Positions 60,209-63,536 of a stretch of 64,000 nt of DNA are shown here, one piece after another. The DNA lies in the NCBI RefSeq assembly GCF_900176335.1, contig NZ_FWXW01000001.1, positions 186,001-250,000 on the forward strand. The letters are read 5' to 3'. The stretch's first letter is position 1. Each line of letters starts with the position of its first letter. Position numbers and translations under genes: made by a program. The notes under the pieces are model-generated. The model had not been told where the DNA came from. It searched no databases and saw nothing but the letters and a program-made list of their open reading frames with translations. Source of the DNA: Papillibacter cinnamivorans DSM 12816. GTDB lineage: Bacteria; Bacillota; Clostridia; Oscillospirales; Oscillospiraceae.

Positions 60209-61897
60209 ATGGACGGTTTGTATTGCAGACCGCTTCTTTGCGACGAAAATGGAACGGTTCTGTATTCCGGTGCGGATAATTCTGCGTACGGCGTGAGCGT
60301 CGGCGATAAGCTGGCGCTGAAAGACGCGGTGAACGCGCAGGATGGTATTCTTATGGTATCGGACACGATAGTCCTGTGCCGTGCGGACATTACTGGCTTC
60401 CGGGGGTATGTCGGATACAGCTGCGACTCGCGCCTTCACGAGGATGTCATTGCCGAGCTTCGGAATAAAAATCGGGAGTGCGACGCGATCTTCGAATCCT
60501 CCCACGATGGGATTGTGGTGGCTGACGCCGACGGACTGTATACCAGAGTAAACAGCAATTACGCAAAAATCACCGGAATCCCCTGGCAGGACGTCCTCGG
60601 ACACACGGCCCAGGAGCTGGTGGATAACGGCATCATCTCCGATTCGGCCACCCTGCATGTTCTGCACACGGGAAAGAGCTTTTCCTTCAGCCAGAGCTTC
60701 AAAACCGGGCGCCAGAGCATCGTGACGGGAAGTCCGATTCTAAGCGAAGAGGGAAAAATTATTTCCGTCGTTACCAATGTCAGGGATATGACGGAAATCT
60801 ATAAGCTGCGTAAAAAGGTCCAGGCCTCCCGGGAAAAACTGGAGCAATATTCCAAAGTGGTGGAAAAGCTCACTCAGGAAAAGCTCAACCCCAACGGGAT
60901 CGTCTATAAGAGCAAGCAGATGGAAACCCTTCTGGAGACCGCGCTGCGTTTCTCCAAGGTGGACACCACCGTCCTCGTGACGGGGGAGTCCGGCGTGGGG
61001 AAGGAGATGGTGGTGGATTTTATCCACCGCAACAGCAAGCGCAGCCGCGAGCCCTTCTTCAAAATCAATTGCGGCGCCATACCGGACGCTCTTCTGGAAT
61101 CGGAGCTGTTCGGGTATGAGGCGGGCGCTTTTACCGGGGCGAAAAAGGGCGGCAACGCGGGCCTGTTTGAACTGGCCAATCATGGAACCATCCTGCTCGA
61201 CGAGATAGGCGAATTGTCCCTTCCGCTTCAGGTCAAGCTCCTCCGGCTGGTGGAGCAGAAGGAATTTTACCGGGTGGGCGGTCACAGGCTCATCCGCGTG
61301 GACGTGCGCATCATCGCGGCCACCAACCGCAATCTTGCCGAAATGGTAGACCAAAAGCTCTTCCGGGCGGATCTCTTTTACCGGCTGGCCGTTCTCAAGC
61401 TGTATATCCCCCCGCTGCGGGAACGCAGAGAGGATATTCTGCCCCTTGCGCTGCATTTTCTGTGGAAGTTCAATGAATTGAGTCAGTCTTCCAAGGTCAT
61501 CTCTCCCCGGCTGTACCCCCTCCTGATCAACCACGATTGGAACGGAAACGTTCGGGAACTGGAAAATCTCATGGAGCGCCTGGTTCTGATCTGCGATCAG
61601 AATGAGATCGGCCCAGAGTATCTCCCGACGGAAATGCTGTCCGGCAGGAATCTGGAGGGTATTGACGTGGGGGATTTGGGCGATTTGACCTATCAGGAGG
61701 CGAGAGATAAATTTGAGCGCAACTTTTTCTCCCATGCAATCCAGACCTACCGCACCGCCCGAAAAACGGCGGAGAAGCTGGAAATCGATCACTCCACCGT
61801 TGTAAAGAAGGCGGCGAAATACGGCCTCACCCTCTCCCCAAAGGAAGATGAGGCGGAATATGGTGACAAGCATCATCAAAAAGAAGCTTTCTGGTGA
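60209..61897 (+). CDS. PAS-AAA-HTH sigma-54-dependent activator
   Basis: 562-aa bacterial enhancer-binding protein. N-terminal about 1-85 unknown sensory part (MDGLYCRPLLCDENGTVLYS), a PAS domain (about 90-205, IFESSHDGIVVADADGLYTR), then a central AAA+ domain with Walker A GESGVGKE (about 257), the sigma-54 contact loop GAFTGA in AGAFTGAKKGG, Walker B TILLDEIGELS, and a C-terminal Fis-like helix-turn-helix (TARKTAEKLEIDHSTVVKKA). ATG 60209 is chosen for its AAAGGAGG. Direct upstream neighbour of a sigma-54 promoter, so it very probably controls the dehydratase gene downstream, sensing an unknown metabolite through the PAS domain. Confidence 0.93.
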   Translation: MDGLYCRPLLCDENGTVLYSGADNSAYGVSVGDKLALKDAVNAQDGILMVSDTIVLCRADITGFRGYVGYSCDSRLHEDVIAELRNKNRECDAIFESSHDGIVVADADGLYTRVNSNYAKITGIPWQDVLGHTAQELVDNGIISDSATLHVLHTGKSFSFSQSFKTGRQSIVTGSPILSEEGKIISVVTNVRDMTEIYKLRKKVQASREKLEQYSKVVEKLTQEKLNPNGIVYKSKQMETLLETALRFSKVDTTVLVTGESGVGKEMVVDFIHRNSKRSREPFFKINCGAIPDALLESELFGYEAGAFTGAKKGGNAGLFELANHGTILLDEIGELSLPLQVKLLRLVEQKEFYRVGGHRLIRVDVRIIAATNRNLAEMVDQKLFRADLFYRLAVLKLYIPPLRERREDILPLALHFLWKFNELSQSSKVISPRLYPLLINHDWNGNVRELENLMERLVLICDQNEIGPEYLPTEMLSGRNLEGIDVGDLGDLTYQEARDKFERNFFSHAIQTYRTARKTAEKLEIDHSTVVKKAAKYGLTLSPKEDEAEYGDKHHQKEAFW

Positions 61898-61910
61898 TTA
61901 TATTCACCAG
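61860..61910 (+). promoter_or_regulatory. Two candidate enhancer sites for the sigma-54 activator
   Basis: Perfect inverted repeat CTGGTGA-6-TCACCAG (61891-61910) and an imperfect one TGGTGA-6-TCATCA (61861-61878), same 6-base spacing, centres 31 bases apart (about three turns). They lie at the 3' end of the activator gene, about 125-165 bases before the promoter start point, the usual enhancer distance. One overlaps the activator stop codon. Confidence 0.65.
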
Positions 61911-61951
61911 TATATTGACCAAAACCCATTGCCTTGCGATCCGTCAGATTG

Positions 61952-61998
61952 TGAAAAGAGGCAGGCGGCAGAAGAGATCTGCCGCCTGCCTCTTTTCA
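61952..61998 (+). terminator. Terminator after the sigma-54 activator gene
   Basis: Perfect 20-bp stem, arms 61952-61971 and 61979-61998, loop AAGAGAT. It would stop activator transcription before the sigma-54 promoter 10 bases downstream, so the dehydratase gene depends on its own promoter. Confidence 0.85.
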
Positions 61999-62007
61999 TG
62001 GTACAAT

Positions 62008-62024
62008 TTGGCATCTGAATTGCT
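62008..62024 (+). promoter_or_regulatory. Sigma-54 (-24/-12) promoter
   Basis: TTGGCATCTGAATTGCT: GG at 62010-62011 and GC at 62022-62023 with exactly 10 bases between, and the full TGGCA...TTGCT consensus. Expected start about 62034, 60 bases before the dehydratase ATG. Confidence 0.9.
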
Positions 62025-62093
62025 CTCTAGTAAGGTACAGAAGTAAGATGCATCCGTTACGTGCTTCTGCAATTCGGAATAGGAGGCAAATAA

Positions 62094-63536
62094 ATGAAGA
62101 CAGGACAAGAGTACAAAGACAGCTTGCGGGGCCGCAATATAAAGGTCTATTTCAAGGGCGAGCTGCTGGACGGCAACACTCTCATTGACAACCCCTACAT
62201 CAGAGGGCACGTCAACTCGGCCGCTATGACTTATGAAATGGCTTTTGATCCCAAATACGAGGATCTTCTGACGGCCACTTCCCACCTCACCGGAAAAAAG
62301 ATCAACCGTTTCACCCACATCCATCAGAGCGTGGAGGATCTTCTCACCAAAGTCCGGATGCTGCGGGCCGTCTCGCTGAACACCGGTACCTGCTATCAGC
62401 GCTGCGTGGGCCTGGATGCGGTCAACGCCGTGTATACCACCACCTTTGAGATGGACCAGAAATTCGGCACCAACTATCACGAGCGCCTGGTGGATTTTCT
62501 CAAACAGTGGCAGGAAAACGACTGGATGGTGGCCGGCGCCATGACCGACCCCAAAGGCGACCGCAGCCTTCGCCCCTCTCAGCAGGCCGATCCAGACCTC
62601 TTCGTTCATGTGACTCAAAAGGACGACAAGGGCATCTACGTGTCCGGTGCCAAGGCCCACATGACCGGCATGGTGAACTCCCACTGGATGATTCTCATGC
62701 CCACCTCCGGCTACGGAGAGGAGGACAAGGACTACTGCGTCTGCTGTGCCGTGCCCGTGGACGCCCCGGGTATCATCCACATCTTCGGCCGTCAGACCAA
62801 CGACGGCAGGAAGGAAGAGGGAGAGATCGACCAGGGCAACGCCTGCTACGGCGTGGTGGGCGGCGAGTGCCTCACCGTGCTGGAAGACGTGTTCGTACCC
62901 TGGGATAAGGTCTTCATGTGCGGGGAATTCCAGTACTCCGGCATGCTGGTGGAACGTTTTGCCTGCTATCACCGCCAGAATTACGGCGGCTGCAAGGGCG
63001 GCGTATCCGATATCGTCATCGGTGCGGCTGCCACCATCGCCGATATGAGCGGCTACAGCAAGGCGGCTCACATCAAGGATAAATTAAACTACATGATCCA
63101 TCTCACGGAAACCCTGTACGCCTGCTCCGTGGCCTGCTCCGCCATGGGCACCAAAACCGCCTCCGGCGCTTACTATGTGGATCCGCTGCTGGCAAACGTG
63201 GGCAAACACAATGTCACCCAGCTTATCTACGATATCGACCGCATCGCCCAGGACATCGGCGGAGGCCTGCTTGCAACCCTGCCCTCCGAGGCGGATCTGA
63301 GAAGTCCCGAGGTGGGAAAGTATGTGGAAAAATTCTTCAAAGGCGTTGCCTCCGTTCCCACCGAGGACCGGATGCGTATGGTACGGCTCCTGGAGGTCAT
63401 GACCGGAGGCGTGGCCCTGGTGGAGAGCATGCACGGCGCGGGCTCCCCCCAGGCGCAGCGCATCATGTACTCCAAGCTCTCCAACCTCGAAGCCAAGAAG
63501 GCGGCGGCTAAAAAAATCGCCGGCGTAAAGCCTTAA
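62094..63536 (+). CDS. abfD: 4-hydroxybutyryl-CoA dehydratase-family radical enzyme
   Basis: 480-aa flavin/[4Fe-4S] enzyme of the AbfD family, which dehydrates 4-hydroxybutyryl-CoA to crotonyl-CoA (vinylacetyl-CoA isomerase activity too) in aminobutyrate/succinate fermentation. The four cluster ligands are all present with family spacing: Cys100 and Cys104 in TCYQRCVG, His293 and Cys300 in YHRQNYGGC. GAMTDPKGDRSL, GAKAHMTGMVNSH (flavin side), and ESMHGAGSPQAQRIM are strongly conserved. GGAGGCAAATAA precedes the ATG. A related hydroxyacyl-CoA substrate cannot be excluded. Driven by the sigma-54 promoter. Confidence 0.9.
   Translation: MKTGQEYKDSLRGRNIKVYFKGELLDGNTLIDNPYIRGHVNSAAMTYEMAFDPKYEDLLTATSHLTGKKINRFTHIHQSVEDLLTKVRMLRAVSLNTGTCYQRCVGLDAVNAVYTTTFEMDQKFGTNYHERLVDFLKQWQENDWMVAGAMTDPKGDRSLRPSQQADPDLFVHVTQKDDKGIYVSGAKAHMTGMVNSHWMILMPTSGYGEEDKDYCVCCAVPVDAPGIIHIFGRQTNDGRKEEGEIDQGNACYGVVGGECLTVLEDVFVPWDKVFMCGEFQYSGMLVERFACYHRQNYGGCKGGVSDIVIGAAATIADMSGYSKAAHIKDKLNYMIHLTETLYACSVACSAMGTKTASGAYYVDPLLANVGKHNVTQLIYDIDRIAQDIGGGLLATLPSEADLRSPEVGKYVEKFFKGVASVPTEDRMRMVRLLEVMTGGVALVESMHGAGSPQAQRIMYSKLSNLEAKKAAAKKIAGVKP

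Follow-up and report, generated by a model that had tools for sequence, protein, structure and literature searches.

The analysed window is a 64,000-nucleotide stretch of the genome of Papillibacter cinnamivorans DSM 12816 (G000:C9:186001-250000). Its end is closed by an array of + strand genes encoding a 562-residue sigma-54-dependent activator, a 480-residue enzyme of the 4-hydroxybutyryl-CoA dehydratase (AbfD) family, a 98-residue protein and, cut off by the window border, an alcohol dehydrogenase. The 196 bp gap between the activator and dehydratase genes, together with the last codons of the activator, contains two palindromes, a hairpin and a -24/-12 element. A preliminary description of this DNA had taken the arrangement for a complete sigma-54 control unit, and our results agree: rpoN is present in the genome, the palindromes and the -24/-12 element are conserved where the activator itself is conserved, and a one-component sigma-54 switch very probably drives the radical dehydratase operon.

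The activator (bacterial enhancer-binding protein; 60209-61897, + strand) has the composition that had been proposed for it: a PAS domain (residues 92-196), an AAA+ domain with the GAFTGA motif and a C-terminal helix-turn-helix (HTH). Pfam matches were PF00158 (Sigma54_activat, E 9.8e-66), PF00989 and PF18024. The predicted structure of the sensor showed a confident PAS fold at residues ~90-220; the N-terminal ~80 residues were modelled at low confidence, too uncertain for use. Genome-wide counts were obtained by pattern searches across the 2.89-Mb genome. A search for rpoN, suggested by the preliminary description, found a complete gene with the AID, core-binding and DNA-binding domains, and the genome carries 22 strong Sigma54_activat matches, representing sigma-54 activators. 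Scanning for the activator's own promoter with sigma-70-like patterns gave chance-level matches only.

The -24/-12 sigma-54 promoter lies at 62008-62024 on the + strand (TTGGCAT-CTGAA-TTGCT, TTGGCATCTGAATTGCT), 69 bp upstream of the dehydratase ATG. It matches the consensus exactly, as had been claimed, and is the sole exact site on both strands of the window. Composition predicts ~1.7e-7 matches to the exact form (TTGGCAY-N5-TTGCW) per position, or ~1 in the genome, where 16 were observed; fifteen of these 16 stand within 1.6 kb of an activator AAA domain (Sigma54_activat match). An AGGAGG ribosome-binding site (62081-62086, + strand) is located at the usual distance from the dehydratase start codon.

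Two inverted repeats of equal spacing had been noticed upstream of the promoter, and both were found within a few bases of where they had first been placed. Upstream activating site 1 (61861-61878, TGGTGA-N6-TCATCA, TGGTGACAAGCATCATCA) has one dyad mismatch and lies inside the last codons of the activator, whereas site 2 (61892-61909, TGGTGA-N6-TCACCA, TGGTGATTATATTCACCA) is a perfect dyad overlapping the activator stop codon. The two copies share a 6-bp gap, differ from each other in one base, and are 31 bp apart centre to centre, ~100-150 bp upstream of the -24/-12 promoter. The preliminary description had recommended looking for TGGTGA-N6-TCACCA elsewhere: the genome contains a single perfect copy. 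GGTRA-N6-TYACC was matched in 2 of 5,000 shuffles of the window region. Upstream of the 15 remaining exact promoters, the best match to GGTGA-N6-TCACC has two mismatches, and because no comparable site stands at these promoters the regulon of the activator seems to consist of the window operon alone.

The palindromes might be chance sequences, the activator using other sites or genes and only the -24/-12 element being real. Single short palindromes are indeed common; with up to two mismatches allowed, this one is found at 318 places in the genome. Against such an origin, the other exact sigma-54 promoters lack a comparable site, and the number, geometry and helix-matched sequence of the sites are conserved across four distant loci with orthologous activators. 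We regard chance as very improbable. The four loci (L003-L006) come from a GTDB genome scan for relatives of the window dehydratase, which returned 15 loci; in these four the upstream activator aligns with the window activator across the whole sensor, beyond AAA+. The sensors are 36-44% identical over ~222 residues and the adjoining dehydratases 73-76%. L003 belongs to an alphaproteobacterium of the Xanthobacteraceae (sensor 44% over 222 residues), L004 and L005 to Desulfovibrio metagenome-assembled genomes (MAGs), and L006 to a deltaproteobacterial MAG (sensor 36%).

Comparison of these homologous loci, which had also been recommended, revealed two to three sites of like geometry at each. Between activator and promoter there are two GGT-N10-ACC palindromes in L003 (TCGGTGAATGAATTCACCGT and ACGGTGAACGCCGTCACCAC), two each in L004 and L005, and three in L006, and the strict GGTRA-N6-TYACC count was equalled 0-4 times in 5,000 shuffles per locus. 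A recognisable -24/-12 element follows downstream in each (CTGGCACGGCCTTTGCG, TTGGAACACTTTTTGCC, TTGGAACGGTTATTGCT and TTGGAACGCTTTTTGCC); that of L003 stands before a run of genes for a major facilitator superfamily (MFS) transporter, a short-chain dehydrogenase/reductase (SDR) and the dehydratase. The recognition helix is near-identical in L003 (DHSTVVKKAARYG) and the window (DHSTVVKKAAKYG), and both have GGTGA/TCACC sites. In L004-L006 the helix differs, THVTVLKKI(R/K)RY, and the sites are of GGTAA type. The predicted enhancer sequence tracks the recognition helix of the activator. A single palindrome is weak evidence alone; the comparative result makes the case for the putative enhancers strong.

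Several observations weigh against the proposed switch. Enhancer site 1 is imperfect and within coding sequence. At L120 (Oscillospiraceae), which encodes the dehydratase closest to that of the window (83% identical), the upstream activator is non-orthologous (sensor 19%, HTH 21%) and no GGT-N10-ACC sites were found. At L007, L008, L121 and L122, with dehydratases of ~72% identity, there was neither an activator nearby nor an exact promoter. Searches of 400 other genomes of the family and ~390 genomes of the class yielded no orthologue of the activator, nothing beyond 44% paralogues. The pairing of activator and enzyme is not universal, because the activator is swapped at L120 and absent from the vicinity at the other four loci. 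Loss from close relatives, which the preliminary description had held to speak against the unit, is seen in part: the enhancers are missing at L120, and no unit was detected in the four ~72% relatives; the exact -24/-12 element is retained at L120 despite the different upstream activator. Finally, a T-tail terminator scan did not list the hairpin between enhancers and promoter, which has no free T tail.

This hairpin (61948-62002, + strand) has a 25-bp stem and is the probable, possibly bidirectional, terminator of the activator gene. Its 25 pairs give -45.3 kcal/mol (z = -10.3), and 5 bp separate it from the -24 element. The T-tail scan missed it because the U tract is inside the stem, as is the A tract. 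Of the strong terminator that had been described, the stable hairpin stands; the terminator role is our interpretation of a structure absent from that scan. Strong hairpins without sequence relation to one another occupy the stretch from activator stop codon to -24 element in the window unit (L002) and in many others (L088, L120, L123-L126, L131, L134, L138, L139, L147 and L151), some within 10-30 bases of the promoter and in some units <10 bp upstream of -24. Their recurrence fits a terminator that would keep activator transcription off the sigma-54 promoter. The exceptional stability of the hairpin and its position next to the -24 element could also suggest a regulatory RNA or attenuator. 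This seems very unlikely: the hairpin is upstream of the sigma-54 start and hence outside the operon mRNA, an Rfam scan of the activator-dehydratase intergenic region found nothing, and unrelated hairpins occupy a like position in other units, as terminators would.

In the switch that we propose, the PAS-AAA+ activator would be expressed from its own upstream promoter and would take its signal through the PAS domain. Activator oligomers would bind the two TGGTGA-N6-TCA(C/T)CA sites, whose 31 bp distance corresponds to about three helical turns, contact RNA polymerase-sigma-54 at the -24/-12 element about 100-150 bp downstream and open the promoter via ATP hydrolysis. The hairpin would most likely end the activator transcript and so keep read-through off the sigma-54 promoter. 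The promoter would drive an operon led by the gene for a radical AbfD-superfamily dehydratase of the [4Fe-4S]/FAD type; acting with a CoA-transferase, a crotonase and a 3-hydroxybutyryl-CoA dehydrogenase (HBD), this enzyme could convert a 4-hydroxy acid through its CoA ester to an enoyl-CoA for further oxidation. The sequence elements, rpoN, the conservation of the elements, and the family and catalytic residues of the enzyme are direct observations; DNA binding, activation, termination, inducer and substrate are deduced from them.

The dehydratase gene (62094-63536, + strand) was placed in the 4-hydroxybutyryl-CoA dehydratase family by phmmer and by a tree. The phmmer search grouped the enzyme with 1u8v (Clostridium aminobutyricum AbfD; E 1.5e-165) and with 6vjr, whereas the HpaB monooxygenases scored far lower. 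The homology to 1u8v is full-length, and the Fe-S ligands C99, C103, H292 and C299 of AbfD are conserved as C100, C104, H293 and C300, in keeping with the claim that all four ligands are present. Q101, T190, E257, Y296, K300, E455 and A460 (AbfD numbering) are likewise all conserved. We take the functional roles of these ligands and catalytic residues to be those assigned in 1u8v.

Family membership as first proposed is confirmed; identity with the canonical enzyme is not. In the maximum-likelihood tree the window enzyme belongs to a clade of 23 rows, supported at 100/99, that includes neither 1u8v nor the C14 paralogue of the same genome. Four residues just before Glu455 (G451-T454) are missing in 23/23 clade members and present in 33/33 canonical sequences, and Gln189 is replaced by Met in all ten members of a subclade that includes the window enzyme. 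By these criteria the window enzyme is not a canonical AbfD, and its operon partners differ as well.

Beyond the window (locus L002) the gene run continues on the + strand. The alcohol dehydrogenase, an NADP-type secondary-alcohol dehydrogenase of 354 residues, has its start in the window (63945-64000) and spans L002:5945-7009 as a whole; it is followed, up to L002:12643, by genes for an SDR, a CoA-transferase, a permease-like protein, a crotonase and an HBD. The CoA-transferase is a fused type-I, YdiF-like enzyme. The alcohol dehydrogenase matches the NADP isopropanol dehydrogenases of the Thermoanaerobacter brockii/Clostridium beijerinckii type over its full length (E 4e-136). In other operons of the clade there are genes for CaiB-type transferases, AMP ligases and thiolases, and for MFS or sodium symporters. 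An SDR gene is present at 7 of the 23 clade loci but at none of the 32 canonical ones (Fisher p 0.0012, calculated without phylogenetic correction). Such operon contents fit a pathway in which a 4-hydroxy or 4-oxo acid is taken up, activated with CoA, dehydrated and passed to beta-oxidation.

It is quite possible, if somewhat short of an even chance, that the sigma-54 unit simply controls an ordinary 4-hydroxybutyryl-CoA dehydratase, used in fermentation of 4-hydroxybutyrate, gamma-aminobutyrate or succinate semialdehyde to butyrate or acetate. Every catalytic residue of C. aminobutyricum AbfD is conserved, and the downstream crotonase and HBD would suit a crotonyl-CoA product. The separate clade, the four-residue deletion and the Gln189 replacement argue against this, as does an AbfD of the canonical clade encoded elsewhere in the genome in a sigma-54 unit of its own (C14, L088). 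Moreover, the window operon lacks a Cat2-type transferase and an iron-containing alcohol dehydrogenase, and has the type-I CoA-transferase, the secondary-alcohol dehydrogenase and the SDR. With the enzyme in a separate clade and with these partners, 4-hydroxybutyrate, the substrate named in the preliminary description, appears doubtful.

Alternatively, the substrate may be a secondary-alcohol 4-hydroxyacyl-CoA, such as 4-hydroxyvaleryl-CoA derived from levulinate or gamma-valerolactone, or else a longer or aryl analogue. The dehydrogenase and/or the SDR would interconvert 4-oxo and 4-hydroxy acids, the CoA-transferase would activate them, and crotonase, HBD and thiolase would complete the split. 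The match of the operon dehydrogenase to isopropanol dehydrogenases, the distribution of SDR genes (with the reservation made above for its p value) and the clade-specific changes adjoining the catalytic Glu point in this direction. On the other side, the secondary-alcohol dehydrogenase is restricted to the window operon and not found elsewhere in the clade, the substrate of the SDR cannot be read from its sequence, and the literature searched for anaerobic 4-hydroxyvalerate or levulinate dehydratases offered no biochemical precedent. For this particular substrate class our confidence is low. Literature on abfD operons in Oscillibacter was not found either. Our best reading is an inducible 4-hydroxyacyl-CoA fermentation, in which the substrate is perhaps a 4-hydroxyvalerate-like secondary alcohol and not 4-hydroxybutyrate.

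A wider proposal, which we consider speculative and rather doubtful, is that the whole uncharacterised clade of radical dehydratases acts on secondary-alcohol 4-hydroxyacyl-CoAs (4-hydroxyvaleryl-CoA or larger), serving inducible fermentation of levulinate-type acids or gamma-lactones in anaerobes, and that the control module moved with the enzyme. The activator and its GGTRA-N6-TYACC sites would have moved as a module among clostridial, Desulfovibrio-type and alphaproteobacterial genomes, other lineages keeping sigma-54 control and swapping the activator. AbfD-clade operons of the L003 alphaproteobacterium and of Desulfallas/Desulfotruncus (L010/L011) encode MFS transporters whose N-termini closely resemble each other (LLYIINYFDR.SVLTFLP); this transporter is a candidate for uptake of a shared substrate.

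Predicted sigma-54 control of AbfD-family loci is widespread in the bacterial family of P. cinnamivorans. Of 43 such loci from this family, 22 have an exact same-strand -24/-12 element ≤2.5 kb upstream, vs four with one on the opposite strand; about 0.02 are expected by composition. An activator lies ≤6 kb upstream in 24 of the 43, and 20 have both activator and exact promoter. The HTH sequences of these activators include several that are clearly different. Because exact promoters stand at 22 loci and the HTH sequences differ, predicted sigma-54 control of AbfD-type operons is common in this family and the activator is the changing part. All three full-length HpaB/AbfD-family genes of the P. 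cinnamivorans genome lie in sigma-54 units. The third paralogue (G000:C11:137928, L089; 36% identical) likewise has an activator and an exact -24/-12 element ahead of it and is flanked by two SDR genes, a crotonase and an HBD; it keeps the four Fe-S ligands and has Ala at Glu455 and Ser at Thr190, where the alignment is uncertain. Judged from translated starts, apparent sigma-54 targets in this genome include thiolase-like, 3-hydroxyacyl-CoA dehydrogenase, CaiB-type CoA-transferase and aminotransferase genes. With the 22 activators and 16 exact promoters, they make the fermentation lifestyle of P. cinnamivorans appear largely sigma-54-run.

The kind of system is already known. The sigma-54 regulons reconstructed for 57 Clostridiales, among whose members are genes for butyrate and alcohol synthesis, gave the promoter consensus TTGGCATN5TTGCT, to which the window promoter conforms exactly, enhancer distances of 100-250 bp and a XanR group controlling abfD operons in Clostridium (Nie, Dong and Yang 2019, PMC6615313). 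A second study reports that COG2368, the family with 4-hydroxybutyryl-CoA dehydratase, is sigma-54-enriched in Clostridia (PMC12316311). The preliminary description had called sigma-54 control scarce in clostridial fermentation genes; both studies, and our 22 of 43 loci with an exact promoter, contradict it. The XanR regulon (abfD-nifU-hyp-ach-golB; PMC6615313) resembles the window in its predicted activator and -24/-12 control of an abfD-led operon, its several enhancer sites and an activator usually adjoining the target. It differs in its published distribution, Clostridium only, and in the gene order after abfD. PMC12316311 likewise finds the AbfD/HpaB family enriched among predicted sigma-54 targets; this is a statistical enrichment, and the text read describes no individual unit, activator or enhancer for the clade of the window enzyme. 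The SadR-sadh units of Clostridium (PMC6615313) also place a secondary-alcohol dehydrogenase under sigma-54, whereas in the window the dehydrogenase is internal to the operon, behind the AbfD-family enzyme, and the enhancers are TGGTGA-type instead of TGT-N10-12-ACA.

What is new here is this activator group, with predicted enhancers that match its recognition helix and an occurrence in several phyla, and also the assignment of the enzyme clade. The locus offers a clean putative sigma-54 switch of two enhancers and one target, for which the specificity of the sites is supported by comparison. About half of the sampled AbfD-type operons in the family have sigma-54 promoters, and because these persist with several unrelated activators the activator appears less stable than the sigma factor. 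The AbfD clade singled out here, altered next to its catalytic glutamate, is relevant when butyrate and 4-hydroxy-acid metabolism are predicted from the genomes of gut bacteria, in which its genes are likely labelled 4-hydroxybutyryl-CoA dehydratase by default.

The small CGxC...C protein of 98 residues is encoded at 63549-63845 (+ strand), and its homologues stand beside many AbfD-family genes. It had no match among the Pfam and NCBIfam families searched; the predicted fold is alpha/beta (pLDDT 84), without a significant match in a fold search against the PDB. Proteins of 90-100 residues recur beside AbfD-family genes in >20 loci (including L003:11487, L012:11440, L017:4127 and L120:6369), with GVK(F/Y)CG.C close to the N-terminus and C51/C55 as a further pair. 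The protein might serve as a partner in Fe-S assembly or in activation. On the - strand of the window, a divergent cluster at 56837-59814 encodes a BcrAD/BadFG-type activase, an HGD-D-like protein and a DUF2229 protein, which look like split 2-hydroxyacyl-CoA dehydratase/activase modules.

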